DNA of 64,000 nucleotides from Schizophyllum amplum (lineage: Eukaryota > Basidiomycota > Agaricomycetes > Agaricales > Schizophyllaceae), in NCBI GenBank assembly GCA_007026445.1, contig VDMD01000061.1:1-64000 (forward strand). The letters run 5' to 3'. Position numbers and translations under genes: made by a program. This document shows, piece by piece, positions 3,794 to 59,465 of the stretch. The stretch's first letter is position 1; every line of letters starts with the position of its first letter. The notes under the pieces are model-generated. The model ran no database searches and was not told the origin of the DNA. It was given only the letters and a program-made list of their open reading frames with translations.

Positions 3794-5032
3794 GGCGTCG
3801 ACGAGAAGAACAGGAGATATGAGGCTCAGTGTCGACTCCCAAGGCCTTTATCGTCGCAGGCATCCATGCTTATCCATCGTCTTCTGTAATCCAGCGGTAA
3901 TCCTGCGTATATAGTACATCATAGCTGCGCGTCGGACGCCGATCGCGTCTGGAACGGCAGAGCGCTCGTGGCGATCCTCTTCGCACTTCCGTAAGCCATC
4001 GACATATTCCGGGTCATGGTGCAGTCCACAACTGAACATTGCGGAGTGATGTTGGCCAGGCCAAGAACAAAGGAAGCCGACTGTGTGTTTCTGCTTGTTC
4101 ACCGCGTGTGACCCCATCACGTGGAAGTCAAACTTGGAGGCCAACTCCCTTTTTATGTACTTACCACTAGCTTGCCACTAGCGTCTCAGAGAAAGGCAGT
4201 CAGTACACTCGCAAAAACACGGAATAAACGTAAGGATCGTATGAACATTCGGATCGAAATACCCACCAGAGCCTAGTATTTGGGTCGCCAATCCAGGGTT
4301 TTCCGAATCCCAGGCCGACTTGGCTTCGCCGTACTACTACATCTCTCTGCGCCTGAGAGCATGGGTACTCCCGATCCACATCTCGTTGTCAATGACGCGG
4401 AGCAGCGAAAACGGTCTTTGGCAAGCTCACATGTTCACCTCTAAGTCCGCTTTCGAGGGGAATAACGGTCTCTTTCTGCGGCAAGTGGTCACATTCGAAG
4501 CGGGGACTGTCTCAACAGCTAACACCCTATGCATAGGACACGACATCCCTCTTAGCTCTGTACTCGTGTGAACCAGACGATTTAAACGATCGCACACAGC
4601 CTTCACTGAAGGCGGGTATACCTTCAATACTTCCAGCCAGCTTATGCTAAAGCACGGTCAGTAGAGGCATGTGTTGAAGAGGGGTTCATTGCTCACGCTC
4701 GTTCCCTTCTTTAGTGGCAACCAAGATCTTGGCCGCGCACGGATGAGCTGTTGACAAGGTGAGACGTCATTGTCCAACTTGAGCCGCCGGCCGCTAAGAA
4801 GGCGCTACAGTTGCACCGAGAGCGGGATCTAGTACCGTGACGACCGCCTACAATCGCGTCCGTTAATCCCGACGACTGTTAAGGCTCGCGAACGAATGTG
4901 GGTACGCTTTGTTGGCGTGCGCTACGATCACATTGGAAGAAGCGGCCGTTTCTGAACGCCCAACCTAAGGTCCTCAAAGATCTCTCCCCGAAGCATAAAC
5001 TTCCTTCTCATCCGTTCTCTTCTCGTGGTATC
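3794..5032. other. Intergenic, divergent promoter region
   Basis: About 1.2 kb between copy 1 of the oxidoreductase (minus) and the terpene cyclase gene (plus). I find no convincing gene. The only striking signal is the GC-rich element at 4784-4795. Confidence 0.5.
4784..4795 (+). promoter_or_regulatory. Cluster GC-rich element, exact 12-mer
   Basis: Exact CCGCCGGCCGCT, 238 bp upstream of the terpene cyclase ATG. The same 12-mer lies upstream of P450-1, the ABC transporter, ABM2/SDR2 and ABM3. It is likely a site for a cluster transcription factor (inference). Confidence 0.6.
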
Positions 5033-6575
5033 ATGTGCTCAACAAACATTGACGCGCTCATTTTCGACCTCGGTGACGTCCTCTTTACTGGAACGCGCCT
5101 ACGACGACCGAAGTTCCACCCAAGACCCTTCACGCCATTCTGCAGACGCCTACCTGGTTCGATTACGAACGAGGCCGCCTAACAGAGGACGAGGCCTACG
5201 AAGCGGTCGCCTCCAAGTTCGACCTTGGTGCCCAGGACGTCGCCGTCGCCTTCCAGGGCGCGCGAGATAGCCTCTCCAGTCGCCCCTTCATGGTCGACCT
5301 CATCCGAGACCTGAAGCGCGACGGAGGAAGGTGTTTGCCATGTCCAACATCTCTGCACCAGACTGGTCCGTCCTCCGCACCAAGTCCGCCGACTGGGACA
5401 TCTTCGATGCCGTGTACACGTCGGCGGAGGCGGGCGAGCGCAAGCCCGACCTTAGCTTCTTCCGGCACGTCATCGCGCAGACCGGCGTCGACCCGACACA
5501 CACCAGCATTCGTCGACGACAAGTTCGACAACGTGCTAGCTGCGCGGTCATTCGGGATGAAGGGCGTCGTATACGACGAGTTTTCGAACGTTCAGCGCAC
5601 GCTTCGTAATATCTGCGGCAACCCCGTCGCGCGAGGGTTCGCTTTCATGCACGAGCACGCAGGGCGCCACGTCTCCTTTACTTCGACCGGGCACGTCATC
5701 CAAGAAAATTTTGCGCAGCTGCTGATCCTCGAGGCGCTCGGAGACCCCGCGCTCGTGGACTACACTAAGTACGATGGTCCGTTCAACTTCTTCCGGGGAG
5801 GGGGACAGTTCACCACGCGTAATTTCCCTTTCGACGCGGACACTAGCTCCATCGGACTTACCATCGCGGAGGGCATAACCGAGGAGACGAAGCACCGGGT
5901 GATGGACGAGATGCTGCGCCTGCGCAACACGGACGGCATCCTACAAGTCTACTTCGACCCTTCACGACCGCGTGTAGATCCCATCGTCTGCGTGAACGCG
6001 CTATGCTTCTTCTACTTCAACGGCCGCGGGGACGAGCTCTCGGAGACGCTCGACTGGGTCGAGGCGGTTCTACGCCATCGCGCATACCTGCATGGGACCC
6101 GCTATTACGAGCCCGCCGAGGCATTTCTCTAGTGAGTTGATCCTTCGGTCGCCTGACTCTTGCTTACACTTTGCGCAGCTTCCTCTGCCGCTTGCTCGCC
6201 ATATCCGAGAGGGCGCGGGCCGCTTGGGTGCATTGCTGCGGGAGCGCTGTCGCGAGCGCGTCAACATGCCCGGGGATGCTCTGGCTCTAGCGATGCGTGT
6301 AATCAGCTGTCGAGCACTGGTGTCGATGCCACTGCAGATATGCAGCGGCTCTTGGAGATGCAACAGGTTGACGGTGGCTGGAACAAGGATGGTTCTACAA
6401 ATACGGCTCAAACGGGGTCTTATAGCCAACAGAGGTGAGTTTAACCTGATCCGCTGCCTTATATCAAGTCTAATACTTTCCAGGATTCACAACTGCACTG
6501 GCCATTAATGCAATCCGCGCGTGGAAGGTGGATGTCGGGTTCAAGAGTCGCACGCCTTCCCCGTCTAGCGAATGA
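5033..6575 (+). pseudogene. AstC-like HAD-type class II terpene cyclase, frameshifted
   Basis: The coding pieces match the fungal HAD-type sesquiterpene cyclase family (AstC type, drimane formation from farnesyl diphosphate). HAD motifs are visible: FDLGDVLF at the N-terminus, then ERKPD, then FVDDKFDN. The second half has the class II cyclase acid motif DADTS (in FPFDADTSSIG) and a C-terminal QW-like repeat, QQVDGGW. Introns lie at 6132-6178 and 6435-6483. The frame shifts near 5088, 5330, 5508, 6210, 6320 and 6430; each gap is one or two bases and no intron fits. The long cyclase core (about 5512-6131) is open. Neighbouring genes read through without such breaks, so decay is likelier than general sequencing error, but homopolymer errors are not excluded. 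The promoter carries the cluster element. Confidence 0.78.
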
Positions 6576-7546
6576 TAATTCGAGAGTTTCTACATATCTG
6601 CATACAGTACATTGATGTCTGTCATGAGCGAGGCCGAGGCGAAGTTTTAAGTATTCAGTATTCATCTAAGCGCCAACAGCCGCGCCACGGCGCCTGGGCG
6701 GCGCACAGGCGCCCAATCAGCCTGGAAAGATTCACTGCGACCGGCCCGACACTCGGAAGGGCCTTGTCCGTTCTTTGTATACTAGCAGAGACCCGTGTTT
6801 ACGGCCGCTGTCTTCAAAGACATGTACTGAAATCCTCTTATTTCTTTGGTTATGCGTGGTAAGTCACTTCTGGAGAGGCATGGTCTTAGTGTGGCCACAC
6901 CCGTGGCGCGCGTTAGCAAGGGTCGCCTGCGACGCGGACTGCGAAGGGGACTGTAAGGCAAGACCGGCAGATGGCATCCGCTTGCTGCACTGTCACGCCT
7001 CGAAAGGTAGGACCCGGGCATACTGCGATGGTCGTGCCGACTCCCGACTCGCCATGTCCCAGTTCAAGTGTCCGGACGGTTGAAGTTGATGTCACACCCA
7101 TGTCACACGCTTTCGTCTCAGAAAGGCAATTTTTGGGAAGCGAGGCGTAGAGGGCCAGGGGCAAAGGCATTCGTGGAGGACTGTGGTAAGTAGCAAAGTC
7201 ATGGTCAGGTGAGATAGCGCCAAAGAGAAATGGAAAGAGAATGGAGAGCGGCGGAGATGGTGGTCAGGGTCCGAGAGCGAGGGGGAAGCGCCAGGAAAGG
7301 CAATTTTTGAATCTGTCAAAGCGCGGCAGCTCGGCAAAAAGGGCCTCCTTGCTTATAGAAGGGATATCTCTCTTTCTTTCTCCCATCACCCTTCTTGCCG
7401 AAACGATCGTGTTCTCGCGACCTCGGAGAGTCTGCTTGGCAGTGATTACTCTTCAAGCCGCTGCCACTTCTGCTTGATCTCCTCGCGTCTGTATTCTCAA
7501 CGTTGTCCTTGACATTATTTGTCGCTTCAAGTCCCAAGCCATCGAC
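6576..7546. other. Intergenic
   Basis: No supported gene. It contains the SRA gene promoter, a GC-rich imperfect palindrome near 6690-6715, and two copies of GGCAATTTTTG (about 7126 and 7298). Confidence 0.45.
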
Positions 7547-26023: not shown

Positions 26024-29000
26024 TCAGTCCACCAAAAACTCAGATGTCTCCGCAAACTTCTCCAATACGGTCTTCATCTCCGCGGCTAGACCTTGGACGT
26101 ACAATTCGCTGAAGAGGTCCTTGCGATAGTTGATCTCGCCCGTCACCTTCTCGCTCCCAGCCGTGCGGCCGAAATATATCTCCATGTCGAGCTGCACCGC
26201 ATGCATGTTGACCTCCATCCGCTCCATCTGGACGCCTGCAGCCTCGCAGGACGAAGCGTCGTGAATAACATAGCCCATAGCGATGCGCATCGGCACGTTC
26301 CCCGGCGCCAGCGCGCCGCGCGCCCACAGCGCCTCCATGATCGTCGCCATATGCGCATCGGTGTGGGCGAAGCCCTCGACTGACAGCGTCCGCGTCTGCT
26401 CCAGCACCTCCCGGAACGTCTGTCCTGGCGCGACGTGGATGCGGTACATCAGCGCCGTCGCGAAGAATCCCTGCAGCGGTGCGATCTCCGAGCGCTGGCG
26501 GTTGGCGGTCGCCCCACCGAGCACGGCGTCGGCTATGCCTGTGCGGCGGAAGTGGACGACGCGCAGGGCCGCCATGAGCGCCATGGTGAACGTCACGCGC
26601 ATGGCTGTACACGCTGCGTCGATGCGCGCCACGAGCGACTCGGACAGCGCGATGGGCACGCAGGCGCCAGCTGTAGACCGCGCCGAATGATTCGCGTCGG
26701 GGAGTTCAGCGTCGACAAAGGCTGCAGCAGAAGATCCCTGCAGCTGCGCTGCCCAGTAGTCCAATTGCGGCGCAATGAGCGCAGCGAACGACTCGCTCTG
26801 CTCCCAGCGGGCAAAGTCGGCACATGATACCGGGAGCGCAGGAAGCACAGGGGCGCGACTGCCACAGAGAGCGCCGTAGTATTCGCAGAGCTCCTTGATG
26901 ATGACGTCCTCCGAGAATCCATCGGTAATGATATGGTCGAGGGATAGCAAAAGCACGTACTCCTGGGGCCCTAGACGGAAGAGGGTGGGACGGAAAGGCG
27001 GCTCGCCCGCGATGTCGAACGGTTTGCTCGCATGGCCGCGCAGACGCGCCGCCAGAGGCGTCCCCTTCATCCCCAGCACATCGACCTTCTCCAGAGTGGG
27101 AAGCCAGTCAAGCACGCACGCGCGAAGGTCGTCATCGGCTTCGATGAAGACAGTCCTGAGTATGTCCTGTCGACGCGCCATATCCTGTACAGCACGCTCG
27201 AGCAGGTCTTCATCCAGCGGCCCCCTGAGCCTCAGCCAGAATGGGCAGTGGCTGACGATATCGCCCGGCGAGCTACTCGCAGAGTACTGCCACCGGGAGC
27301 CCGCGGAAAGCGGGTATTCGGACCCATTGGCGTTGGGGAGCATGCGTACCACCTCGGCGATGGACTTGACGGAGGTACATGTCGACTTCTCGAGCAAGCT
27401 GGCGAGGTGACGCGGCGTGGCTCCCTGGAAGATATCCTGCATGGTGATAACCGCACCGAATTCCTTGTCGAGGCGCCACTTGACCTGCATGGCGAGCAGC
27501 GAGTGGCCGCCCACATCGAAGAAGTCATCCTCTGCGCGGACCTGCTTGACTCCGAGAATCTCGCTGAAGATAGCGCAGATACGGCCCTCAGCGCCGTTGC
27601 GCTCCAGTAATCTGCCATCAGGTGTTGTCGTAGCCGCGTCGTTGTCTCCCGGCTCGGTATCCCGCTGGAGCGCCATGCCTTCGAGAGCCCGTCGGTCAAG
27701 CTTCCCATTGTTGTTGAGTGGAAGTGTATCCTGGATATATACCGCGTGCGGGACCATATATGCAGGAACCGCTGCCTTCAGCGCGCGCGCGAAAGTGTGC
27801 GGATCGAGTACGGCGTTGCTGTTGTGTGATGGGACCACGAACGCAGCGAGATATGGCGACCGGCCGTCGACGGGCTTCACATATGCGACTGCAGCATCCT
27901 TCGCAAGGCCGCTGCTCACTATCACGGCTTCGACCTCCGCTAGTTCGAGACGCTGCCCACGTATCTTGACCTGCCCCGCCTGTAGACGTCTCTCGAATTG
28001 CATGTCACCGCTGGGCAGCCACCTCACGAGGTCACCCTGGTATACACGCATCAGATGAGAAAAGGTGGCACCTAATAGAGCACGCACCGTTCGATAGAAC
28101 ATGGATGGTGGCTGATCAAGGCCTGGCACTGACATACGGACGAACGCTGCGGCGGTCTCCGCTGGTCGGTTCAAGTATCCCGCAGCGAGACCGCGCCCGC
28201 CGATGTATAACTCCCCAGGTATTCCGGGTGGCGCCAGCCGCGACTGTTTGTCAAGCACGACACACTGCGTATACTCGAGCGGCCGCCCGATAGGCACAGG
28301 GCCCCGCTCTAGCATACGATGGACAGAATATGCAATTCTGTCAAGCTCGTCAGTTGAAGGTATCTCGAATCGATGGCAGATAGCTTACGCCATGATGCAG
28401 GTCTCAGTAGGACCGTATCCATTGATCAACTCGCCCGTCGGATTGACAGTTCTAAAACGGCGGCACTGCGTGAAATCCAATGCCTCTCCACCGACAACGA
28501 CCAGGCGTAAATCCGCAAAGAGATTTGGCGCGACCGACAACACCTGGCGAAAAAGCGACGTTGCGATTGCGGTGGCGTTGACCCGGCGGAGGCGAAACAG
28601 TTTGGCGAGATTCTTTGGGTCGAGGACCTCGAACGAGGAGAAGCAGACGAGGGCCGCGCCCATAGTGAGGGTACAGCATGTGTCCAGCAGACATCCGTCC
28701 CACGCGAGGTTGAGGATTTGTGCGACGCGCATGTCGGGCGTGATGAGTCCCACGGCGCGATCGTATATCAGGGACAAGACGGCAAACACCGTCATGCGCA
28801 CGCCCTTGGGGCGCCCAGTGCTGCCACTGGTGTACATAACGTACGCCAGCTCGCTCGGCGCCGAGCGCCACAGCGTCTTGCTGCTGCCTGTCCAATCCGC
28901 CATACGACGCTCGTTTTTCGACAAGAAGTTCGAGACGTCCAACCTGCGCACGGCGCCTGCGGGTATATCTGGGGAGTCGGCGCATGTGATGAGAAGCGCG

Positions 29001-30008: not shown

Positions 30009-30086
30009 GACACTGGGTCGAGTACGGCTTTGCGTAGTCGAACTTCATCATTAATATTGTAGTCGCTGATCTAGAGGTGAGTTTTT

Positions 30087-30097
30087 GCGGCCGGCGG
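30087..30097 (-). promoter_or_regulatory. Cluster GC-rich element (11 of 12)
   Basis: GCGGCCGGCGG, the reverse complement of the first 11 bases of CCGCCGGCCGCT, lies 79 bp upstream of the NRPS-like ATG and points the same way as the gene. Confidence 0.55.
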
Positions 30098-31277: not shown

Positions 31278-31288
31278 CCGCCGGCCGT
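31278..31288 (+). promoter_or_regulatory. Cluster GC-rich element (10 of 12)
   Basis: CCGCCGGCCGT, 154 bp upstream of the ABM paralogue 1 ATG. Confidence 0.5.
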
Positions 31289-34598: not shown

Positions 34599-36895
34599 CT
34601 ACTGTCCGCCAATTTTCTTCACCATGAGCGGCACACTGGGCCCAGCATCCTCCTTGCCCTTGACGTACGGACCAACAGTGATACCCAGGCGCCAATCGAT
34701 TTCCTCCGGACACGAGATGAACTCGAATGAGGGGATCAGGATCGACAGGACGAGCTCTGAATAGCAAGTGAGTTAGAATATAGCAAGAACGGCGCTGGAG
34801 AGCATGTACTCACTGATTTCCAAGATCGCAAACTTCATGCCACTGCAAGGTAGAGCTTTCAGTCATGCACAACGATGCAAAATCCAAGTCAACTCACGGG
34901 CACGCACGACCACCACCGAGGAAGGTCATGATGTTCGAGTATATACCTGACGAGAATACACACATCAGCCCCCTCCCGACATGGCACGAAGGGGACTCAC
35001 CAGGCATCTTCACCCCATTCGGCGTGCTCTCATCAATACTCTTCTCCATCCAGCGCTCCGGCTTCAGTTCCGCCGCGTCCGCGCCCCAAATCGTTGTGGA
35101 CCGGTTCGCCGCGCCCATGCCAATGTGGACGGGCGTGCCCTTGGTGATAAGGAGCTCCCGCGTTTCCGCACCCGTCGCGGGGTCGCGAATAGGGAACTGC
35201 AGAGGTACGACGCTGTCCTCGTAGGTCCTGTGAGAGTGTCAGCAAGGGGCGACAGGAGTAGGTGAACATAGCGTACTCCCTCCAAACAAATGTCACGGGC
35301 GCGAACACGCGGAGCGCCTCCCTGCAGATGCCGTCAAGAAGAGGCAGTTTTTCGAGCTCGTAGTAGTCAAGCTCCTCGTCGTCCTCCTTGCCCTACCCTA
35401 GTCAACTAACGTCTGCGACTATGAGGTGGATTTCTTACCGAGCGTGCGGCATTCAACTCCTCGCGAAGCCGTCGCTGAAGATCGGGTCTTTCTGCCATGA
35501 GACAGAGAAGACGCGATAAGGCTCCAGCAGTGGTTTCTTGTCCGCCCAAGACGATGGAGCTACAAGGACGCTCAGTAGTCATATGGAGCGGACAGAAGAG
35601 TAAGACCTCATCGTGGCAATGACCATCTCGTCGTCCATCCTATCCGCATCGTCAATCTCGAAGTTGCGTGCGACTGAGTAGGACAGATCAGTGGACTTAC
35701 GTAGACGGTCATGATTGAAGCTTACTGAGTAGGGACGACAAGTCCTTCCCGCCCGAAACTGTCTTCTCAAGCTCGCTGACGCTCCCTTGCGCGATGAGCT
35801 TCTTCTTGTCCATGAACAATCGCTTGCAGACGGGATGCATTGTGTCGACAGCCCACTTGAACTTGTAGGGGGATCAAATATGTACTACGGCTCTGACACT
35901 GCAAGACGACTCACTCTGCGCGCGGACGGCCAGGGCACATACCTGACAGCAGCTGAGAGAAAGCCCCGAAGCCAAACAGGCTTCATTTTGCGCCATCCAT
36001 TGAGAAACGGAAAAACCAAGAACAAGCGACCACCCATTGGCCTACTTCATTGAGTCACCACTCAAAGAACGAAGGACGAAGGACCCACAGGACAGTCGAC
36101 AGCGCCTCGTGGAACGTATCAAACTCCTTGCTATCCTCTTCGAAGCTATTGAATGAATGTCCCAGGCCACCCTGAGAGATCAGCTCGAGAGCGGTGCGCG
36201 TCAGGAGATCAAGCATGTCGATATTGGTGGCTTCAGCTGGCCCGTTTCTAAGCATGCCAGCAAGCCTGTCCCGAAGTTGATAACCAATCTTGTAAAAGAT
36301 AGGCGAGAGCTTGGAGACAAAAGCGGCGGTGAATATTGGATTGAGCACCCGGCGCAGACGTTTATGAGCGGCGCCTGCAGAAATGTCAATATCAGCATAC
36401 GAAAGGAGGAAGCAGAGACGTGCCATATGCCGTAGCGGTATGTTCACCGTGGTGGATGATACCAAAGAGCCTACGTGCATGATGAGTGACTTATGATGCG
36501 CAGGAGAGCGACGCGACACACCCTCTGAACTCCGTCGATTCTTCGAAGACGCGCTGATCGCGCACCAAGATCGAGTGTAGAGCAAGGGGGTCTGTGATGT
36601 ATAGCGCGTCCTTCTGGAGCTAGGTTGTTCACAATTAGAAGAATGACAGCAGAGTCAGATAGTGACGCACCCCGAAGAATCCTCCGCGCAGACGCGCTAC
36701 ATGACCGTACCGAGCACACATGCTGTAATGGAAACTATGCAGCGATTTTTCGTCATGTAGCTGAGGAAGGTAGCCCATTATCGACGTGTTGTCTGGACCG
36801 GGAAGGTGCTCATAAGGTTTCTTGTGTCTGAGCGCGATCCATAGGACCGTCAGGGAAAAGATGACGAGCGCAGTTGCAAGCGGCGTATCCAGCAT
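34599..36895 (-). CDS. Cytochrome P450 monooxygenase 2
   Basis: Thirteen exons, all in phase, give 561 residues: 36895-36671, 36619-36522, 36470-36424, 36374-36089, 36041-35915, 35861-35726, 35673-35607, 35559-35439, 35392-35277, 35227-35001, 34946-34898, 34842-34814 and 34756-34599. The N-terminus is a membrane anchor (LATALVIFSLTVLWIAL) followed by HLPGPD. Motifs are I-helix GGQETT (Glu in place of the usual Asp), REALRVF (ExxR), LKPERW and heme loop FLGGGRACPG. The third intron uses a GC donor (GCACGT). The type is that of basidiomycete P450s annotated as PAH-inducible/CYP5037-like, but the family was not verified. A cluster element is 135 bp upstream, in the promoter it shares divergently with P450-3. 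Confidence 0.9.
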
Positions 36896-37029: not shown

Positions 37030-37041
37030 CCGCCGGCCGGT
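37030..37041 (+). promoter_or_regulatory. Cluster GC-rich element (11 of 12)
   Basis: CCGCCGGCCGGT, 135 bp upstream of the P450-2 ATG, in the P450-2/P450-3 divergent promoter. Confidence 0.5.
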
Positions 37042-37251: not shown

Positions 37252-37263
37252 GCGACGGCCGCT
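37252..37263 (+). promoter_or_regulatory. Cluster GC-rich element (10 of 12)
   Basis: GCGACGGCCGCT, 125 bp upstream of the P450-3 ATG. A further GACGGCCGGCC follows at 37273-37283. Confidence 0.45.
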
Positions 37264-37387: not shown

Positions 37388-39526
37388 ATGTCGACAATCG
37401 TCACAGCGATGCAAGAGCACTGGGTGCTACTCACTGCAGTCGGTCTCCTCGTCTTCGCGTGCCGAAGGCTCTTCACGCCGCCCCCCGAGCTCGCGCATCT
37501 ACCCCGCGTCCCTGTTCTCCCACTGCTCTTGAGCTACTTCACAGGAGAAGTCGAAGATGTGCGTATCAAGCGTTTGCTTCTCCCCTTCGCCGAGCGCGGC
37601 GAGGGCGTGGTGCTGGTCTATGCGCTTGGCCGCTGGATAGTCCATGTACTCGATGATAAGGTGGGTGCTTCAGTTCGTCAATATCTTCAGGTTATACAAG
37701 CGACGTTCAGATCGCGAAGGACATTTCCGCAGACATCGTGACTTGGCCAAAAGAGGAGCCTCCCGGTACGCACTCGTACATTTGACACGGATTATATACT
37801 CACCAAGTTCGAAGATGATCTGTTGTTATGGCGGCTTGTGGGTAAAGTAGACGTCCAAAGCCTTTGAACAAGACTCACATCACTAATTCACGTCGCTCAG
37901 ACTAATGTTATCCTATCCAACGGCATCAATTGGCAGCGCCATTCTCGCGTGGTCAAATCTGCGCTTCAACGGTAAGCATCGCGCCGGTCCATCCCGCCAT
38001 CCGCTAACCCACGTCTCGCAGCAATCTTCCCATCGAAGACTTCGTCAATCTCGCTAATCGCCTTTTCCGTGTCATGGGAGACGGCGGCAAAATGCAATGG
38101 GATGACTTGGCCATGGTCAGTGTCCATGGTTTTCGTCTCTCAATTCCCGTATAGCTGACCCTTCCTGACCAGCGGTTCACGCTGGACGCCGTCGGATCAA
38201 CAACTTTTGGCTGGGACTTCAACAGTATCGAGGACACCAACACGTGCGGTTTCCGGGCTTCATTCCGCACCTTCAATCTGACCGTCCCACAGACCCTTCG
38301 TCAAAGAGTACAGCCATGTCATGGACAGCATAGCCAACCCCCTGTTTGTCCGTGCCCGTTGTGACTACCATTTGCTCATGGAATTTTAGCTATATCGTCT
38401 TCCCTGGACTTGAGAGGCTCATCCCTCGTCGCGACATCATCCGCAGGATTGACGCGCTCATCGCCAAGTTTACCAACATCCTCGATCAGAAAAAAGAAAA
38501 CAAGGGCAACGACATGCTGACCTACATGCTCGAGGAGGTATGTCCTCATCTTCTTCCTCCTTCGACACCTCCCTGACTGCAAGCTCTAGCCCGAAATGAG
38601 TGACGTCGAGTTCCGCGACAATATGGTCGTCTTCTTCATCGCCGGACACGTGAGTTTAAAGGTCGTAACTGTACGCGCTACCTCGCTGAGCCACGCCCCC
38701 CTCTCAGGACACAACCGCCGGCGCCATGTCCAGCCTCGTCTACTTTTTCGCCAAGCACCCAGAGATGCAAGTCCGCGCACGCGCCGAGGTCCTAGCCGCC
38801 ATGGGGACCGACGAGCCGAACCTAGATAACCTGCACGATCTTCCTTTCATCCAGGCCTGCATCCGCGAAGCGCTGCGCATCAACACGCCCATTGTGAGTA
38901 GTGGTGCCCCCAAAGATTCGGATAATCCGCTTATACATGCTGCGCAGGTCTACATGGTCCCCCGCGCAAGCGCACGACCGGCGGAGCTCGTGAGCGCGCT
39001 TGGCAAACGATACGTACTCCCCGCCAACACCTCCGTCATTCTGAACATCTGCGCGATCCATTATAACCCGCGCTATTGGCCAAGGTCTGTTATTCCTTTA
39101 GCACTCCCATCGCCCCCTGATCATCTCCACATTTGCAGCCCCTCATCGTTCAAGCCGGAGCGCTTCATGAACCGCGACGACAAGGAGATCGCTCACGTAG
39201 ATGCTGGCTTGTGGATGTGCGTCGCCTCATTCCATTTGGCTCTGTCTGCCGTCACTGACATGACCGCCAGGCCCTTCGCGCTCGGCCCACGTCAATGCCC
39301 TGCGCGGAATTTTGCGCTCTACGAGATGCGCACGCTCATCTCAATGCTGCTGCGTGAGTGGGAGTGGGAATTGCCGGCAGATTCGCCGCATATGGATGGG
39401 CTGAAGAACGGGTTCTCGCCGTTCGCGCTGAGTCTGCCGAAGAATATGGACGTGGTGTTCCGCAGGGGAAATTTCAGTAGGTCTGACGTGAAGATGGATT
39501 TGCATAGCATAGGACCTGATCAGTGA
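37388..39526 (+). CDS. Cytochrome P450 monooxygenase 3
   Basis: Thirteen exons, all in phase, give 500 residues: 37388-37660, 37711-37765, 37815-37837, 37901-37971, 38022-38115, 38173-38243, 38293-38343, 38390-38537, 38590-38649, 38708-38893, 38948-39084, 39139-39216 and 39271-39526. The N-terminus has an anchor (VLLTAVGLLVFA). Motifs are I-helix AGHDTTAG, REALRIN (ExxR), FKPERF and heme loop FALGPRQCPAR, in which the usual Gly two residues after the Cys is Ala. It resembles CYP3/CYP63-like monooxygenases of basidiomycetes, not verified. It is divergently paired with P450-2, and the intergenic region holds at least two cluster elements. Confidence 0.9.
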
Positions 39527-39555
39527 TAGTCTATGGGTATGCGTAAATACGCAAT

Positions 39556-40778
39556 CTAGATCGCTCTCGTATCGAATGAGGCGTAGATCCCTGAATTTCC
39601 AATGTGTGTTCCTCTGTCGATGAGTTCAAGCTGTAGCGGCAGGCTCCTCGAATCAAACGCTTCACACTCACAAGTAGGGGCCGTCCAACGCGAATTCTTG
39701 TTGCACGCATGCTTGTCCAGGTTCTTTTGAGACCCAAAGAACTTGTGGCACGTGTCGCATACCCAGTCGCACGGCCGCCCGTGCTTCAGGACTTCGTGCC
39801 GAAAGCGATCATGCTGCCTGGAGAAGCTCTCCTCGCACCCCATGGTGCACTCCAACGTCCGCGGCTTCTGCTCATCCTTGCTCTTGCGCTTGCGGGGCGT
39901 CACATTGGGCGCAAGCGCTGGACTCCCGGATGGCGATGTAGACAATGAAGGGGACGAGGAGGACGAGGAAGGCGGAGGCTGAAGCACAGGCGAGTGAATG
40001 GCGGGCGATACGGGTGATACGGGCGTTTGGAGGGTAGGGGAAGCGGTCGAGTCCTTCGGAGGTTGATTCCATGTACCGCTCGCTAGCTCCAAAGGGGATA
40101 AGCCGGCTAGCATGGATAAGATCATGGGATCTGCATACAGATGAGTTATCCAGCAGTGTATTAGCTTGTATTAGTGATGCATGACTGACCAGTGAGCCCC
40201 TGCATCGAGTCCACCGTGGCATTGGCAAGAGGGAAGAAATTCAAATCGTTATACAGTGGCGGGAAGAAGCCCGGATCAACGGGAGAGCATGATTGAAGGT
40301 CCTCGTCCGACGGGCCAGACGTGTAGGTCGCGTTTGGCAGGCCAGAAGGAGTGGACTCCTTCTCGATGAACAATTCTGTATGTCCTGATCAATACCGCCA
40401 CGCACAATGTACACAAAACACACTGTATGACGGATCGTCGACCGAGGAACGCTCGCCTGAGGGTGACCGGTGAGCACAAGAGACAGTTACAAAGATCACA
40501 GGACGTGCGCGCGTACCGTAGCTATTTATGCTGCCCGAAAATTCTGAGCTGATCTCCTGTTGCGGCAGTGTTACAGACACTACGAGCGTGGCTCCCTGGC
40601 TTGTGGACTTGATTTCAAAGTTGATTTGGTACCCAGTTGGTGGCGGAAGAGGCTGAGCATGTGGGATTCCCTGGGGCGACGGTCTGACTGAGAGTGTGAT
40701 GCTTTCGTCAGACGAGGACGAAAGCTGAGCATGCACACATAAGCGCGTAAGCTCTTCAATCGGGAGTTGGATGGACAT
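39556..40778 (-). CDS. C2H2-type zinc-finger transcription factor 1
   Basis: Three exons (40778-40517, 40375-40190, 40130-39556) give 340 residues. A conserved N-terminal domain (IQLPIEELTRLC, SVRPSPQGI, TGYQINFE) is shared with the regulator at 60458-61728. Next come a Ser/Pro-rich linker, a nuclear-localisation-like TPRKRKSK (about 228-235) and two fingers: Cys244, Cys248, His261, His266, then Cys274, Cys277, His290, Cys292. The second finger is thus C2HC. The finger region includes SFSRQHDRFRHE and CDTCHKFF. It is a plausible pathway-specific activator and candidate reader of the GC-rich element (inference). I saw no copy of the element in its own promoter. Confidence 0.82.
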
Positions 40779-42009: not shown

Positions 42010-45000
42010 CTACCTCGCGCTCAGAGTCTGCATCTGCACGTACTGGTAGTAATCGCCCTTCAGAGCAACCAGCTCTGCGTGCGTCCCGGTCTCGCTGACG
42101 CGCCCCTCCTTAATAAAGCAGCTGCGCAGATATCAGTGAGGTCGTCCCCTGCATGTAGGATACCAGTGAACGCACATCTTGTCCGCATTCTGAATAGTGG
42201 ACAGTCTGTGCGCGATAGCAATTGTCGTACGTCCTCTCGCGGCTTCGTCGAGGGCGGCCTGCACGATTTTCTCCGAGGTAGAGTCCAGCGCGGACGTGGC
42301 CTCATCCAGAAGCAACACTTTTGGATTCCGGAGCAGCGCGCGAGCGATAGCGATGCGTTCTAATGAGATACGAGGATCAGTATGCGCTACGCGAGGTCAT
42401 AACTGAGATTGCTCACGTTTCTGCCCGCCGGAAAGTTGGCTGCCCTTCCCTCCGACCTCCGTGTCGAATCCACTGCATATTGTGTTAGTAGAAGAATTTG
42501 ACACCTACGTATTACGGCCTACGCACTTCGGCAAACGACCAATGAAGTCAAGGATGTTCGCTTTCCGACACGCCTCGTCTATTTCCTCCTGCGTCACCTC
42601 CGAGTGCGGCTTCGTAGCGCCCAGCAGGATATTGAAGCGTACGGTGCCAGAGTACAGTGTCGGCTCCTGCGAGACGAGCGCCACTTGTTTGCGATACTCG
42701 GTTATGTTGAGCGCGGATATGTGCTGCCCGTCGAACTGGAGAAAATTCAGATGGGCATGGGTGTGAATTGAATATTAGACGCACATATAGAGCACCGTGA
42801 AGCGGGTCGTAGAATCGCTCGATGAGTTGGATACTGTCGAACACATCAATGACGAGAAACACATACAGCCGGCCTGTACTCACGTCGTGGACTTTCCAGA
42901 CCCACTCGCACCGACGAGCGCGACATACGTGCCCGGCTCGATGGTCAAGTCGAATTTACGCAGGACACGAATACCTGGGCGAGTTGGATACCTGCGTAGA
43001 AGGTGAAATTGTGGCATACATGAAAGCCGCCGCTCGCACCTGAAGTACACGTTCTCGAACTTGATCTGCCCCTTGGTCGACGCCCGGTCGATCTTGCGTC
43101 CTTCGATAGATTCCGAATCGATATCTGGCTGGGAGTCGAGAAGCTCTACGACGTCCGCCGCCGACCCTCGAGCGCCAGACATGTCGCTCACGAAGGCGAA
43201 CATGTTCCCGGCTTGAATAGCACCGAGCGTTGTACTCTAGTCTCGCAATCAATATCGTATAAGTCGCCACATGATACGCCCTTACGTACCATTAGAGCCA
43301 CAAAGAAGGCCGACACCGTAATCGTCCTCGCGGCTACCAGCTTCGCGCCATACCAGAAGACCAGAGAGATGATCCAAAAAGACGACGCCTGCGACGCGGC
43401 ATAGACCGCATTATCCCAGACGGAAGCACGGGTGGACCGCTTCAGCGGCTGCTCCAAACTCTTGCTGTATAGGGCCAAACAGTCGTGCTCCCGCGTCAGC
43501 GAAGCGACGGTCCGTATGGCCCCCGCAGCTTCGCAAGCGAGTTGTGCAGATTCCCCGTGAGCCTTCTTATTCTTCTGATCCTTCAGACCGACCACGCGCT
43601 GTTTTAGATGTAAGCCTTCCGCTCCACATAAGCGACGGCGATTGCGATCTTACCAGTGCGATGTATCCGGTGGACACCAAAATCGGCGTGCAAGCTGCGA
43701 GGGGACGCCATGTCAGATATGATAGAGGACGTTGGGCTTTCACGCGTACCCATGCCTACTAGACCAATTCTCCAAGAGTACGCAGTACCAATGGCGATAC
43801 CGCAGACGAGGGTCGACATGCTTTGTATGATCCTGCAAGTCTCCCGTCAATAACCGCTTAGTGCTCATAGCGCGGGCAAGGACTCACACTCCAAGGGTAA
43901 TTCCCGCAAACCCGTTTATCTTCTGCGCGTTCTCACTCAAGCTCGACGTGAGGCTTCCAGCCTGAAAGCGACGATCAGGAAACTTGGCACTCAGAGCAGC
44001 GCAGGTACGCACACTATTCCCCTCTTCATCAAAGAACACCACTGCAAACATGAGTCAGATCGAGCAGCTTCGACATACGTCTCTGCACCCACCATCCTGG
44101 CGAAGTATGGCCTTGAAGCACAGAGTGCGCAGCTTCGCAGTCAGAGCAGCAGCGGTGGAGGTGAAGACGTAGTTCTGAACGCCGGCGGCAGCAGTCGAGG
44201 CGAGCGCAATGATGAAGAACCACAACGCGTTACGGTCGCCCTCCCTGCGCTTCTCGCCCGGATCTTCGGCGGCCAGACCCGTCAGCGCTTGTGCTACAAA
44301 ACAGATCAGAAAAACAGAGATGACTCGCAATGAGACACGCACAAAACACAATACCAAACGCCGGATACACCGCCCCCGAGCACATAGCCGCGAACACGCC
44401 AAACACATAGAACATGGTCTCGTCGCGGTTTATATGCGCCATCCGCTTGAACAACGAGAACGCGCTGTGCTCCTCGACGTCGTCATGCTCAATTCGCGCC
44501 CGGTCCTCCAATATCTCGCTCGCCAGGGATCGCGTCATACTGTTGCGGCGCAGCGAGTAACTGTACCGCCTGCTCAGCCTTTTCTCGAATGCGCTGCTCT
44601 CCGTCACCTCCACGTCGTCATCCTCTTCGTCGTTCACCTCGCGCTCCTCGGCCTGCCGCAGATTCTGCGCCTCGACGAGCCGCGCGTAGGGACCGTCGGC
44701 GTTCTGCAGCAGCTCGGTGTGCGTGCCCTGTTCCAGGACTAGCCCCTCGCCCATGACGAAGATCACGTCCGCGTCCTTGATCGTCGAAAGCCGGTGTGCG
44801 ATTGTAATGGTCGTGCGCCCCGTGGCCGCCTTGTCGAGCGCGTCCTGCACGATGCCTTCGGACTGGGTGTCTAGCGCAGATGTCGCTTCGTCGAGGAGCA
44901 GGATGCGGGGGTCTGCCACGATGGCGCGCGCGATCGCGATCCGCTGCTTTTGTCCGCCTGAGAGCAACATGGCGCGCTCGCCGACCATGGTATCGTAGCC

Positions 45001-47148
45001 TTCCGGAAGCTTCTCAATGAACTCATCCGCGTTCGCGGTGACGCACGCCTCCTTGATCAGCTCGAATTGCTTCTCCGGCGCGGCGTGTTCCCATCGTGTG
45101 TTGATGAGCCCGTGAGCAACGTTTTGCTGCGATGAATAGGTCAGATATATGCGTGGCGGACCGACACCCATGGCTAACACGCACCCTGATGGTCGTCGCG
45201 AAGAGTGTGGGCTCCTGAGAGACGAGTCCAATCTGAGAGCGCAGCCACTTCAGGTTCAAGTCCTTCAGGTTAACGCCGTCGAGCTGCACAACGCCTTCCA
45301 ACGGATCGTAGAACCTCTCGACGAGGGAGATGGCCGTCGATTTGCCAGATCCGGACGCGCCGACGAGAGCGGTCGTCTTTCCGGCCGGAAAGTGCAGGTT
45401 GACGCCCTTGACGACTTGAACATCTGGGCGAGCCTGAAAACGATAAGAACACAAGACACGCGGAGCGTGAGACATTCAAGACTCACCGGGTATGCGAACT
45501 TGATGTCCGTCAGCGTGATATCTCCTTGGACTGTATCCGGCTTGAGTCCGGTCTCGTTATATGCGTCTATGCTCGGGACACGGTCTATGGTAGCATAAAG
45601 CTTGGCCGCCGCGCCTCGAGCTTGACTGATAGCTAGAACAACATTGATCAGGCGCCGTCCCAATGTTTGCATTACGGACGAGCTTACCTTGCATCTCGGG
45701 CGCAAGCAGCGCGATAGAGAAGGCGCCGATGAAAATAGCGAAGAAAACGTTTATGACAACTCCAGGATCCGCTGCAATCGATTCGTCGTCAGTTCAATGG
45801 TATGTATGCAGCGCGTAAGAATTACCGCGACCGTGCAAAATCAGCGTCGTCCCGAAGCTAAAGGCTGTAGATGGTACGTGAGAATCAGTGATAAGCTTTC
45901 CTGCATAGACTTGGACGTACCAAGACCGTAAGAGCTGTAAATGATGAAGAAAAATGCCGAAGAACTCATGCCTTGCACAATGGAATTCTTGAGGTCCTCA
46001 TTGTACGCCAACTCGATGTGACGTCCGTACATGCCGGCCAATGTCTCCTGCGTTCCGAAAGCCTTGGCAGTGCGGACCGTCGATATGACCTCTTCCGCAA
46101 CAGTGCCGGCGTCTGCCGTGTGCTTCGTAGTTCGTCTGCAGAAGATGTGTACGTGAGCGTAAGCTCGCGGACACGACGTCAGCCTACTTACTGCACAAAT
46201 TTAGTCGTGAAGTAGTTCAGTATCCCGCCGAAGAGGCCAAGGCAGGGGATGATGGATGAGAGTGCGAGAGCGAGGCGCCACGACCGGATGAAGGCGAGGA
46301 TGAAACCGACGATGAACGCGCCCATGTATTGGCAAACGAGCGCAACCTTCTCTGATATGCCGCGCTGCACCATATCTGTCGGATGTGAGTGAGAAACATT
46401 CACTGAAACGGTCTCGACTTACGAGTGTCGGTCTGTATACGAGTTGCTATCTCTCCGGCGCCGACGTTGTCGAAGTAGGCTATATCTTGTCGAAGAGTGG
46501 CCTTGAGATATTCCTCCCGCAGACGCTTCGCATTGACCTCCGCCGTGTAAGACCAGCTGAGCATGTAGAAGTAGGTGACCACAAAGATGCCGATCCCTGA
46601 CGTCCATTAGTGACCTCGATCGGATATCTCAAGACGGCAACGCACCGAGATACACAATGTACGACGCGTTTAAGCTCGACGAGTGATAGAACTGCCTCGT
46701 CACTTGAGGAAGACGTTCGCTCGCAGCCGCGTCCCCTGCATCAGCTTGCCCGAGGATCGTTTGAAACACCAAGAAGTCCTGCGCGAGTCTAGAGAAGAGA
46801 AGAGTCATGAGCGGCTATAGAGAAAGCGCGCACTGGTTAGCATGATAATATTATGGGGACAGATGACGAACTTGGCCCGCGCCTGCGGCAACTGCAGCTA
46901 TGCCGCCCGTAACATTCAAGATGCGGTCCGTAGTCGTAGAGAATCTGTGACGGATGAGCAGATTTGTGGGACATGTAGAGGTACTGCACTCACCTAAACA
47001 AAGAGAGGAATGAGACGGAATCGGGTGTATCGGAATCGAATGCGTTTTCGGAGGCTTTTGATTTGACCGGGACGCTGTCGGGTGGCACTTCGTCTACAAC
47101 TGTGCTAGGACCGCTGGATTGCGAGGGACGATGCGACTCCGTTGCCAT
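42010..47148 (-). CDS. ABCB-type full ABC transporter (multidrug-resistance type)
   Basis: A many-exon gene (roughly 20 exons) encoding TMD1-NBD1-TMD2-NBD2. NBD1 has Walker [17 protein letters not shown], signature [14 protein letters not shown] and Walker [16 protein letters not shown]2 has Walker [29 protein letters not shown] and [12 protein letters not shown] with the H-loop AIAHRLSTI. Both ATP sites are complete, so it should be an active exporter, probably at the plasma membrane. The start at 47148 begins [12 protein letters not shown] and is followed by an acidic cytosolic N-terminus; the stop is at 42012-42010. It likely exports the cluster product or gives self-protection (inference). 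An exact cluster element lies 297 bp upstream. Confidence 0.9.
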
Positions 47149-47444: not shown

Positions 47445-47456
47445 CCGCCGGCCGCT
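47445..47456 (+). promoter_or_regulatory. Cluster GC-rich element, exact 12-mer
   Basis: Exact CCGCCGGCCGCT, 297 bp upstream of the ABC transporter ATG. Confidence 0.55.
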
Positions 47457-49337: not shown

Positions 49338-51433
49338 CTATGCGACGGTCGAGTTAGGGAAAAGAACAACATCGTCGTCAATTGGGCATGTCGTCGTAGC
49401 ATCGCTGCCCTCCGCAAGCTGGGTCACATAAGCTGCGCCCAACGAGATTAGTTTGCTCACGTACCGTGCCATCCTCAAAATACCTGCTGATAATATTGGT
49501 GATACAACTGGACCTCTCTGCCACGGAGACATGTCCGAACCCATCCTGCCGCACAAGAGCAGCGCTGTGCCCGAGCAAGTCGGCCATGAGCTTCGCGTTG
49601 CCGCACGGTGTCTCCGGGTCGACCTGCACGACGGGGTGATTCAGTATGCCCATCCACTGCACCGAGAGAAAAATGACCTACGGAGTTCCCGATGATAAGT
49701 ATGCGGTTCTTCAGCTTACTATCCCACGGGCCCGTGTAGCGCTCGACCGCACGCGCCGGCCAGGCGAAGCACATGTGGACACCTATATGCCACTGCGGGC
49801 CAAACAGAGGCGACACGTACTTGACCGCCCGGGCAATGGCCTCGAAGCCGCCACGCATCGACATGTTGCCCGCGTCGACGCTATCGCCACATAAGATCGC
49901 GACGTACTCGTACGTGGGAGGACCGATATTACTGTCTGCGTCGGATTGCTTCATGGAGAGTGCGCGGGAGCATGTTGTGTTGGCGGCAATGGCGGTGAGG
50001 TCCTTCCCGTATGCGTGCATCTCCTCAGCGAGCTGGGACCAGAGCAGCGGAGTGGCCATGGCGTTATACAGGTGTTCACGGGCTTGCGCGGAGGTGTAGA
50101 TTCCGCTGAGGTCAGCACCGGACTCGAAAAGGTCGTGAGCGAGCTATGAAGTAGATGAACTCATTCGACCGAGTTGTTTGCGCGCAAAGGGAAGGACACA
50201 CGTCAAGTATGCCACGAAGACGCAGTGCAACGTCAGCAGCTGTGTCGCTGTCGCTCTGAACAAGCTTGCAGCCGTTTTTCCCGGCCATCGCGCAGCCAGT
50301 GGCGAAGCCGCCGAACGTTTCCTCGGAGGATTCGAGGCTGTTCAGATAATACTGGAGGATGAGGTCAATACGACAAGCTAATTTAGACCGTCAGGAGGGC
50401 ACAGAAATCATGCACACCTCCGTGATTGGGCGAGTCGCGTAAAGTAAGGGGTCTACACAGGCGTCAGTAGAGCGAGACAGCGTTCGCGAAATACTGACGC
50501 ATGCATCCGTCAAGGACGACATGACCGACGCGGTCAGGGAACACTGTAACGCGATCAATTACTGGACGAAAAATGACATGGATAGCACTCACTGTTCACG
50601 AAGATGAAGCCAACCATGGAGCCATAGGAAAAGCACCAGCTATTGATATCCTGTACCCCCGGATCCAGGTAGTCTGCCAGCGCGACCATATCGCGCGCCG
50701 CAGCCGCCGACCCCAGATACGCGAGGGTCTTACCACTCTCCGCCTCTGCGCAGCGCTTGCCCAGCCCCCGATACTTCCTTTCCATCTCGGGAACATGGGA
50801 GTAAAACTTGTACAGCTGATCATCATCAGTGAGGTTTCCTTTGATGTCAAGGCCCGTCTCCTCGAGCGTGCCGTTGAAGTACGCTTCCCAGTCTTCGGCG
50901 GTGTGGAAGCAGGACGGCGGCCCGGGCGTGGTGTGCCCGACGCCGCGCGGGTCCCAGGCGACGAAGTCGTAGTGTTCGCCTATGGCCTTGCGGATATGAT
51001 TCGGCCCGTATTGGAGTAAGAACTCAATACCTGAGTAGCCAGGGCCGCCTGAACAAAGCTCTCAGATGCAAAAGACGTCTCGCCACATAAATTTACGTAC
51101 CGGCGTTGATGTACATAGTCCCTCGTCGTTCCTTCGTGGCTGGATAGATCGCCACCGCCAGACTCGCAGTGCCTACCGAATGGTCTGCCCAGTCTAATGG
51201 CACGTCGTAGTATCCGCAGGATATGTTGAGCTCGTCGCCGTGGCTGTACTTCGCATTAAGACCGCTGCATGGGAACCAGTCGATGCCATGGTCATCCTAC
51301 GACCTTGTCAGCCGAAGACTCTCAAGAAGACAGCAGGACTCACTTCGATGACAGAAGAGCGGCGTCGGCCGTCGAGCGCGCTGACTCCTGAGATGAGTAC
51401 GCCCGCTAGCAAAGCTGCCGACTTGCACAACAT
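49338..51433 (-). CDS. Secreted alpha/beta hydrolase, TAP-like peptidase/esterase
   Basis: A multi-exon gene. The N-terminus MLCKSAALLAGVLISGVSA is a signal peptide. The first intron follows VIE (donor GTGAGT) and the protein resumes at DDHGIDWFPCS. Family landmarks are YYDVPLDW, GGPGYSGIEF (oxyanion region), DFVAWDPRGVGHT and the nucleophile elbow CFSYGS, where Cys replaces the usual Gly before Phe-Ser. The C-terminal TAP-like domain supplies Asp (DPETPC) and His (GFGHVS), so a Ser-Asp-His triad is complete. The last intron (donor GTACGT, acceptor GACCCAG) joins to a tail ending DDDVVLFPNSTVA. It may cleave peptides or esters outside the cell; in this context it could hydrolyse an amino-acyl ester (inference). 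Only a weak half-site of the cluster element (CGGCCGCT, 51522) is upstream. Confidence 0.85.
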
Positions 51434-52143: not shown

Positions 52144-52887
52144 TTATACAGCGTCGTACGACACTTTCTCGGCGTGTTTGACTTGAAAGTCTACCAATTC
52201 CAACGTCTGCTTCATCACGTCCTTTGCATATTCCGACCCCAAGGCCCTCATGTGCGCCTAGTCTCAGCTTTAGCAACCTCGTCGCCGCAAGCGCACACAA
52301 ATCGTGCACTTACCTCGTGCGACTCCCAGCCCAGGATGAGCACATAGCGTTCATTGTTATCCGCGGCGAGCCCTTGGATCGACCCGATTGCCCCCTCCGT
52401 GACGCGTACGCCCTCTGTGGTCATCCGCAGGATCTGTTCCCACCGCTCTCGATTCTCTGACGCCCTAAGTGTCCCGACGGCGAACTCTTGCACAGGAGCC
52501 TCCAGGACGGCCTGTATCTCGCTCTCGCTCTCGCTGGTTATCTTAACGGTAGTGGGGGCGGAAATGCTTTCGAGGACCCCCAGAAGGTCGGGTGTATAGT
52601 CAATCGATGGCGGTCTGTCCGGCGCCCACTCTATTCGAGGGCGATGGTAACTGTCAGCAACGATCAGTGGACACAAAAGGCTGACACTTGCGCAGGACGT
52701 AGTGTCCGTGCTCCGTTTTTTCTATCTGTTGGCCTATGTATACTCTGTCGTACAACTCAGCGTGGTCAAGAAACAATGGCATGTGAACGTACTTCTGCGG
52801 GCCAGTTGCGCTCTCCACCACTTTCCTGACCGCTTGCGCGCTACCCTCTTGGAACGGAAAGAACGTGTACAGCTGCAGGATGGTCAT
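52144..52887 (-). CDS. ABM/EthD-like small protein, paralogue 2
   Basis: Three exons (52887-52692, 52630-52314, 52257-52144) give 208 residues. It aligns along its length with the proteins at 30330 and 59549: YIGQQIE, then VLQW after the intron, then a VQEFAVGTL strand, VLILGWESHE and a C-terminal helix (AHMRALGSEYAKD). The first intron begins GCAAGT, a GC-AG intron at the same position and phase as in paralogue 3. Paralogue 2 lacks the early intron of the other two. Role as for paralogue 1: probable dimeric alpha/beta-barrel enzyme of unknown reaction. It is divergent from SDR2 and shares a 300 bp promoter holding the exact cluster element. Confidence 0.72.
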
Positions 52888-53029: not shown

Positions 53030-53041
53030 CCGCCGGCCGCT
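53030..53041 (+). promoter_or_regulatory. Cluster GC-rich element, exact 12-mer
   Basis: Exact CCGCCGGCCGCT nearly centred between the divergent starts of ABM2 (143 bp) and SDR2 (145 bp), so one site could serve both. Confidence 0.6.
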
Positions 53042-53185: not shown

Positions 53186-54441
53186 ATGGCTACCTTGAGT
53201 TTTCGTCGTGTCGCGCTGGTCACCGGTGCTGCGCAAGGAATGGGGAAAGCCATCGCTATCCGTCTCGCCCGTGACGGGCTCGATGTTGCAATCAGTGATC
53301 TTCCGGCCAAAAAAGAGGCACTCGACGAGGTAGCGAAGGCCGTTGAAGAGGCCGGCGGTAAGGCGGTTGTCTTCACAGGTGATGTATCCAAGGAGGAGGA
53401 CGTCAAGATCATGGTGGAGGGCACGGCGAGCACCCTCGGAGGATTCAACGTGGCGAGTTTTCATGTACTCGGCAGGATGTCGTAATTTTCTGACGCCTGC
53501 TTAGATGGTGGCCAATGCTGGTATCGGTCCTGCCTGTTCGTTCCTTGAAGGTCTCAAGATTATCGAGCTTTGTGGCTGTTCCAATCTGACGCCTTCCTCA
53601 GAGACTGTCTCCGGCTTCAATCGCACCATGGCAATCAATGGCCTCAGCGTCTTCCTGTGCTTCAAATACGCCGCCAAGAAGATCATTGAGCTCGGGCATG
53701 GCGAGGGGCGGTTAGTTGCCGCGTCGTCACTAGCGGGCAAAATGGGTAAGAATCTTGTACTTCCCGCCTCATTCTTCATCCTCACGGTAGACCGTCAGCA
53801 TATCCTGGCTTCACAGGATACAACGCCAGTAAATTCGCTATGCGCGGCGTTGTTCAGACTGCGGGTACGTTGCTCAGCGCGCTGGGCGTCGCAGGCTCAC
53901 CGACACACCTGTAGCGCTGGAGCTTGGTCCGCACGGTATCACGGCTAACGCGTACGCACCAGGTATGCTTCTCTTGCGTGCTTTCACAATATGTCCTAAT
54001 CTGTGGCGGGGAAGGCACCATCGACACGCCTCTCAGTGAGTTCCTCCCTGACCTCCCCTCGAGCCCATTATGACTGTACCTCAGCGCGATCAGAAGAGGT
54101 GTCTACGCAGATTGACCTTCCTGCGGTATGACGGGCCTGCGCTTCCAGTAAGCACCATCTGAGTCTGCTGCAGATAGCTGCAACACTACCGATGCGGCGC
54201 GTTGGTCTGCCCGGGGACATCGCCGCACTGGTGTCATACCTCGCCAGCGTCGAGTCCGGCTATGTGACCGGTACGTGCCCGAAAGTCAGCGAGAGAGAAC
54301 GTTGCTGACGAGTATCGTCTGTTGCATCCTTCTACATTCTTAGGCCAGACGGTGAGCATTGCGATGTATGAGCACACACGAACGGCGGCTGACTTCGCAT
54401 TTACTTAGATCACGATCGACGGAGGCTGGCGCGTTGACTGA
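53186..54441 (+). CDS. Short-chain dehydrogenase/reductase 2
   Basis: A classical SDR built from several small exons. The cofactor motif TGAAQGMG sits near the N-terminus, VANAGIGPA follows, the catalytic Ser is in VAASSLAGKMG, and Tyr-Lys is in YNASK formed across an intron. The C-terminal region includes GPHGITANAYAPGTIDTPL, PGDIAALVSYLAS, GYVTGQTITIDGG and ends WRVD. It resembles fungal acetoin/diacetyl reductase-like SDRs and likely oxidises or reduces a hydroxyl or ketone on the cluster metabolite with NAD(P)H. The first intron appears to use a GC donor (GCGAGT). It shares a divergent promoter and cluster element with ABM paralogue 2. Confidence 0.85.
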
Positions 54442-59154: not shown

Positions 59155-59175
59155 CCGCCGGCCGGTAGCGGCCGG
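59155..59175. promoter_or_regulatory. Two opposed GC-rich elements
   Basis: CCGCCGGCCGGT (59155-59166, 11 of 12) is followed directly by AGCGGCCGG on the opposite strand, an everted pair about 375 bp upstream of ABM paralogue 3. Confidence 0.5.
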
Positions 59176-59453
59176 TCCGACTTGCCGTCGAGCGGCGCGC
59201 GAGCGGCGAAGCACACAAGCAAATACGTGCAATCGACGGCCCCTTGTTCTCAGACTCAGAGTCACTCACGGTGTCCAACCCACTTCCCATACTGAAATGC
59301 AGCATATCTTCCCTCTGCTTGTGATTGTGCAATGTCGCATTCTCCGAGTCATCTCGCATGAGCATCCACGGGGCCCGCATCAACGAGCTTCTCAGTTCTG
59401 GGCTACCTCAGGATATCAGTCCGACGCGGCTTCTCATCGTGACTATAACGTAT

Positions 59454-59465
59454 CCGCCGGCCGCT
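59454..59465 (+). promoter_or_regulatory. Cluster GC-rich element, exact 12-mer
   Basis: Exact CCGCCGGCCGCT, 84 bp upstream of the ABM paralogue 3 ATG. Confidence 0.6.

Follow-up and report, generated by a model that had tools for sequence, protein, structure and literature searches.

What, apart from their neighbourhood, would allow the genes of a biosynthetic cluster in a mushroom to be switched on together? The question is raised by a stretch of 64,000 bases of Schizophyllum amplum contig C268 (the window, meaning that whole stretch), which holds a probable drimane sesquiterpene-ester cluster and, among its genes, five exact copies of a 12-base word, CCGCCGGCCGCT, all on the plus strand. 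The core of this word, the 10-mer CCGCCGGCCG, occurs nine times. The cluster genes encode a HAD-like terpene cyclase, an A-T-C nonribosomal peptide synthetase (NRPS), three P450s, three ABM-like proteins, an SDR, an ABC transporter and a TAP-like hydrolase, together with two paralogous C2H2 proteins. From the sequence we propose with good confidence that a pathway-specific transcription factor binds CCGCCGGCCG(CT) and so activates a pathway to drimane-type sesquiterpene esters. The window region is present a second time, in reverse orientation and at ~92-97% identity with indels, on contig C256 (192,446 bases), which is read as the other haplotype or an allelic duplicate of the cluster.

Over-representation and promoter placement of the word

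The element is over-represented in the cluster beyond chance. With no word chosen beforehand, CCGCCGGCCGCT was the most over-represented 12-mer and CCGCCGGCCG the most over-represented 10-mer of the window. Under an order-3 Markov model of the window 0.024 copies of the exact 12-mer are expected by chance, and for the core nine copies stand against 0.32 expected; in 100 simulated order-3 windows the highest count of any 12-mer was four, compared with five here, and of any 10-mer seven, compared with nine. A rate derived from the genome, 16 copies outside the two cluster copies in ~49.5 Mb, comes to ~0.02 per 64 kb, and the original prediction, an earlier reading of the window, was right to estimate 0.01-0.02 exact matches per 64 kb. 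A simple motif search, with 2,500 random seeds and refinement of 40 of them, covered 19 merged promoter regions and found the element again, its nine best distinct solutions being shifts or near-versions of it.

The element is also restricted to the promoters of pathway genes. Gene models are our own sequence-based predictions, in which several starts were placed by eye or after the paralogue of the NRPS; the 36 models that overlapped the window were reduced to 23 genes by merging pieces (three for the oxidoreductase, and those of P450-1, P450-2 and SDR2) and dropping eight low-scoring or edge models. Each of the nine core sites falls in the 600 bp before a modelled start codon, and promoters so defined cover 11,323 of the 64,000 bases (binomial p 1.7e-7 for nine of nine). 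Ten of the 23 genes are marked in this way (the terpene cyclase, the NRPS, the three P450s, the three ABMs, SDR2 and the ABC transporter), all of them of pathway type, and the promoters of the remaining 13, including the TAP-like hydrolase and both C2H2 genes within the interval, hold no core site. The five exact 12-mers are present where the original prediction had placed them. Among its five close variants, those at 30086 (given there as 30087; on the minus strand), 37030 and 59155 carry one mismatch and that at 31278 two mismatches outside the core, whereas the word at 37252 is doubtful and was dropped as a tenth site, as one of its two mismatches breaks the core; a one-mismatch word at 53347 on the minus strand, absent from the earlier list, was likewise dropped, its core being broken and its place inside the SDR2 gene. 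The distance that had been claimed, about 80-300 bp upstream of an ATG, holds for eight of the nine core sites (80-297 bp), the exception being the site at 59155 (394 bp). No core site marks the oxidoreductase, GH2, SDR1 or F-box genes, which agrees with the original prediction; the gene that had been called SRA was not identified as such, the model at its place (23351-24476) being unmarked.

Copies beyond the cluster

Taken over the whole genome the 12-mer stands at chance level, with 26 copies in 49.65 Mb against 24 of a reversed control. The word is thus not common across unrelated promoters (had it been, this would have spoken against the original prediction), and ten of the 26 copies lie in the two copies of the cluster: five in the window and five, in similar mirrored spacing, on C256. 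The variant CCGCCGGCCGGT has 18 genome copies against 11 of its reversed control, two of them in the window and two on C256. Fifteen of the 16 copies of the 12-mer elsewhere were set on gene models (six exonic, one intronic and eight intergenic, with two allelic pairs among the intergenic ones), and the sixteenth (C48, L004) was viewed as sequence alone. For words with one mismatch and for core words the places listed are the first ~100, so that further dense clusters of the core elsewhere are possible. One allelic pair of exact 12-mers (C282:1839 and C288:287560; L034, L035) precedes by 420-429 bp a gene that encodes 345 aa and has no Pfam match, and one CCGCCGGCCGGT copy (C112:1751128-1751139) lies ~1.9 kb away from a stretch with weak matches to adenylation domains (C112:1740-1749 kb).

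A reach beyond the cluster is best supported by the copy on contig C266. Here the exact word, the sole word within one mismatch in the 10 kb taken, stands between a paralogue of the ABM-like genes and a paralogue of the A-T-C NRPS (NRPS2). It lies 75 bp (start to start) upstream of NRPS2, compared with 89 bp for the NRPS of the window (NRPS1), and on the gene strand in both, where the two gene starts were set by eye from the shared N-termini and the starts of the gene finder give 362 bp and about 450 bp. The NRPS1 and NRPS2 promoters are ~46% identical overall, and their only significant local match is one of 12 bases, GCCGCCGGCCGC (E 0.005). This match is taken as a footprint that persisted while the sequence around it was replaced, and in this one promoter pair the element would appear to have been kept by selection in diverged promoters. 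It is likely, judged from this footprint, that the C266 NRPS belongs to the regulon. The claim that the word delimits a co-regulated set over 55 kb is supported in part, in that the marked genes are all of pathway type and the footprint recurs at the paralogous NRPS, but the set would not be confined to those 55 kb, since exact copies stand at this unlinked NRPS and at HMG-CoA reductase. A search with the C266 promoter found no second allele of the locus. Other paralogues carry no such word: there is none within two mismatches in the 1.2 kb read at NRPS3 on C223, and none within three mismatches in the 1 kb read at an ABM-like gene on C283. The same is true, within two mismatches and in 1.2 kb read on C256, of a second, paralogous HAD-like terpene cyclase that lies upstream of the cluster (C256:142794-144315, L017; also C216:2971-4510) at ~79% DNA identity.

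The word is also found at a gene of precursor supply. On C135 an exact copy precedes an HMG-CoA reductase gene by 778 bp, and the upstream stretch taken holds no further confident gene model. The second copy of the promoter seems to be divided between C110 (this part 100% identical) and the start of C214 (93%), and it too has the word; PF00368 matches in the genome are those on C110 and C135 only. In a check for farnesyl diphosphate synthase, the upstream DNA of three PF00348 matches was read (L039, L040 and L041), all of which look by eye like prenyl synthases of mitochondrial type. L039 and L041 have no upstream word within two mismatches, and L040 has a one-mismatch word inside its apparent coding start and a two-mismatch word, neither of them a promoter site.

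The proposed switch and its alternatives

Taken together, the word is a real, cluster-specific and promoter-restricted element and most likely serves as the site of an activator, its reach to the unlinked NRPS being well supported by the comparison of promoters and its reach to HMG-CoA reductase suggestive. A pathway-specific activator would bind CCGCCGGCCG(CT) and turn the marked genes on together, the site acting whichever way round it lies and in many cases serving two divergent genes from one promoter. It would target all ten marked genes of the cluster, which encode enzymes and the transporter, at least one locus elsewhere (the C266 NRPS) and possibly HMG-CoA reductase, control of which would couple precursor supply to product formation. 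Binding by a protein and co-expression of the marked genes are what we infer here, and the term regulon is used in this sense. If the word is such a switch, the pathway members could be listed from it, the unlinked NRPS among them, and a reporter built on it would help to find what induces the pathway. It would also allow one to test directly whether precursor supply and a terpene pathway are tied by one regulator in a mushroom, as has been reported for Fusarium.

The element belongs to a known kind, the cluster-specific cis-element, and is notable for its reach beyond its own cluster. Cluster-specific promoter words of fungal secondary-metabolite clusters are used by motif-based cluster finders such as CASSIS, and, like them, the S. 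amplum word is one short word that recurs in cluster promoters and delimits the cluster without functional annotation; unlike them, it has exact copies also at unlinked genes of the likely pathway, and its host is a mushroom. To our knowledge, promoter words that mark a whole pathway have rarely been described for mushroom clusters. Titles and the openings of abstracts in the literature revealed no such word for Schizophyllum or for this type of cluster, and the portions available of PMC7725599 and PMC9603100 contain nothing on one.

By analogy, and as far as the available part of its description goes (PMC3182926), Tri6 of Fusarium graminearum is the nearest precedent for a C2H2 protein that is encoded in a cluster and linked to isoprenoid genes elsewhere. 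There, a C2H2 gene lies within a sesquiterpene cluster, isoprenoid-pathway genes outside the cluster are reported to be differentially regulated by Tri6, and YNAGGCC is enriched in their promoters. The S. amplum cluster also has C2H2 genes inside. Among isoprenoid-supply genes outside it, the word stands upstream of HMG-CoA reductase, and the three prenyl synthase upstream regions read have no promoter site. The cluster differs in that CCGCCGGCCG contains neither YNAGGCC nor the GTGA repeats of that description, and in that its C2H2 proteins are candidate readers of the word.

The two C2H2 genes (C2H2a and C2H2b) are mutually paralogous and are the only regulator-like genes noticed in the cluster. 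Pfam recognises one finger, below its cut-off, and the second was read by eye. A protein search gave seven matches, of which four are full-length and all from Schizophyllum, and three, with 20-22% coverage, come from other mushrooms. That one or both of these proteins read the element is a guess, with somewhat less than an even chance of being right, and they are the leading candidates. The finger-recognition code was applied to the C2H2 helices, gave no clear prediction of the element and was left unused as evidence. The fullest version of the proposal is unlikely to hold in all its parts: that one word of 10-12 bp defines a trans-acting regulon joining the 55-kb terpene cluster, the unlinked NRPS and HMG-CoA reductase, read by a Schizophyllum-restricted C2H2 pair, so that a basidiomycete would have arrived convergently at the kind of control that Tri6 has over isoprenoid supply.

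A number of observations weigh against the activator reading or parts of it. Over the whole genome there is no enrichment of words within one mismatch (777 against 974 of the control) or of the core (243 against 224). The fitted models of the motif search also called weak sites in nearly all 19 regions, and the search had no shuffled control. The gene starts from which promoters were measured come from our own models, several of them set by eye. On C256 eight core sites are present directly and the ninth, at 31278, is aligned intact; this conservation is weak evidence because any alignable intergenic 12-mer has a 72% chance of being identical in the two cluster copies, and it adds little except where the flank has diverged, as at 53030 (flank 76% identical, around an intact word). 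On C266 the promoter of the ABM-like gene itself has no core site and holds only a two-mismatch word with a broken core. The link to HMG-CoA reductase was made post hoc and its word is 778 bp from the start, for which reasons membership of this gene is regarded as evenly balanced. As to the C2H2 proteins, their own genes are both without the element, and the best relatives of these proteins and of the cyclase lie on contigs that differ in size in S. commune and S. fasciatum.

The strongest alternative accepts a real cis-element and rivals the C2H2 part only: the reader may be encoded outside the cluster, as a Zn2Cys6 dimer or another regulator, a possibility that comes close to an even chance. 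The word has CCG/CGG triplets, which fit the Zn2Cys6 dimer class, the genome has Zn2Cys6 genes at other places (24 matches) and the C2H2 genes are themselves unmarked; on the other side, none of the 24 matches lies on C268 or C256 in a six-frame exon search, from which a split domain could escape, and two paralogous C2H2 genes lie inside the cluster.

The word might also reflect some property common to promoters, for instance DNA that is GC- or CpG-rich and poor in nucleosomes, and be no specific site. This is highly unlikely for three reasons: although the core is pure G+C and the word is confined to promoters, the reversed 10-mer used as a control has no copy in the window; the next unrelated GC-only 10-mers reach up to four copies there; and the promoters of the 13 other window genes are without the word. 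Very little probability is given to an RNA element in 5' leaders (acting in splicing, upstream reading or stability), for which it can be said that the word lies less than 100 bp from the start codon at the two NRPS genes and ABM1 and may be transcribed there. Eight of the nine core copies are on the plus strand, though the marked genes run both ways, and the word does not behave as a stranded RNA signal because at the ABC transporter, a gene that stands alone at its promoter, the word is reversed relative to the cyclase, the NRPS and ABM1. Chance plus shared descent, in which copies were carried by gene duplication or coincidence, is scarcely credible: some cluster genes are paralogous (ABMs, P450s) and the NRPS1 and NRPS2 sites probably come from one ancestor, but the flanks of the window sites are by eye unlike each other, none of the 100 simulated windows matches, and a functionless word should not be the sole survivor between the two NRPS promoters.

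The cluster, its second copy and minor observations

The features of the window are collected in Table 1. In the available part of its description (PMC5024094), the astellolide cluster of Aspergillus oryzae has a HAD-like terpene cyclase, AstC, and an A-T-C NRPS, AstA, which esterifies the drimane. A drimane ester is the likely product in S. amplum because this core of cyclase and NRPS is shared: its HAD-like cyclase has a DxDTT-type motif and a QW motif (DADTS and QQVDGGW, read in P0002, the C256 copy), and its A-T-C NRPS has a single module. The S. amplum cluster differs in being basidiomycete, in having DADTS, a variant of DxDTT, where AstC has DxDTT itself, in its ABM-like genes and in that its product is predicted only. 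The same part of the paper mentions neither a transcription factor nor a promoter. The three ABM-like proteins are assigned on unequal grounds, one above the Pfam cut-off, one below it and one by similarity alone.

Table 1. Word sites and genes of the window. Marked, core site in the promoter.
Feature	Position	Strand	Remarks
Exact 12-mer	4784..4795	+	terpene cyclase ATG 249 bp downstream
One-mismatch site CCGCCGGCCGCA, core intact	30086..30097	-	upstream of NRPS1, gene strand, 89 bp start to start
Core site, two mismatches outside core	31278..31289	+	ABM3/P450-1 divergent promoter
Exact 12-mer	31650..31661	+	ABM3/P450-1 divergent promoter
One-mismatch site CCGCCGGCCGGT, core intact	37030..37041	+	P450-2/P450-3 divergent promoter
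Weak two-mismatch word, core broken, doubtful	37252..37263	+	outside the nine counted sites
Exact 12-mer	47445..47456	+	297 bp upstream of ABC transporter, reversed relative to gene
Exact 12-mer	53030..53041	+	ABM2/SDR2 divergent promoter; C256 flank diverged, word intact
One-mismatch site CCGCCGGCCGGT, core intact	59155..59166	+	ABM1 394 bp downstream
Exact 12-mer	59454..59465	+	ABM1 ATG 95 bp downstream
HAD-like terpene cyclase (AstC-like)	5033..6572	+	frames broken in window copy; marked
NRPS1, A-T-C single-module NRPS	26024..30008	-	start refined by eye from paralogue (gene finder: 29636); marked
ABM3	30323..31124	-	ABM-like through similarity to C266 ABM-like protein, no Pfam match; marked
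Cytochrome P450-1	31822..34023	+	two model pieces merged; marked
Cytochrome P450-2	34494..36895	-	model pieces merged, start by eye; marked
Cytochrome P450-3	37388..39546	+	marked
C2H2a zinc-finger gene	39640..40778	-	public protein P0123 is the C256 copy; unmarked; candidate regulator
ABC transporter	42010..47148	-	Pfam on N-terminal 648 residues; marked
TAP-like alpha/beta hydrolase	49338..51433	-	within interval, unmarked
ABM2	52144..52887	-	PF03992 barely above cut-off; marked
SDR2	53186..54441	+	start by eye; marked
ABM1	59549..60200	+	PF03992 under cut-off; 58% identical to C266 ABM-like protein over main exon; marked
C2H2b zinc-finger gene	60640..61730	-	96% identical to P0121; unmarked; candidate regulator

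The terpene cyclase of the window and its C256 counterpart can be matched only piecewise, with changes of frame and with stops, and the public protein is marked partial; the break may be either an inactive allele or an assembly error. Two stretches of the window are missing from C256 (9934-11929 and 47907-49193), and an 11-mer, ACCTTGCTTGC, stands at or near both ends of each (positions 9934, 11898, 47949 and 49180), as if they were copies of one mobile element. In C234 the first 1,900 bases (C234:1-1900, L037) are 99.5% identical to part of C256 and represent redundant assembly, which calls for caution over copy counts in the S. amplum genome. Outside the window, C268:75351-85503 (L019-L020) is an insertion relative to C256, flanked by two identical 311-bp direct repeats, and looks like a young long terminal repeat element, and C268:86706-88459 (L020) holds an array of ~129 bp units within a predicted 712-aa gene.

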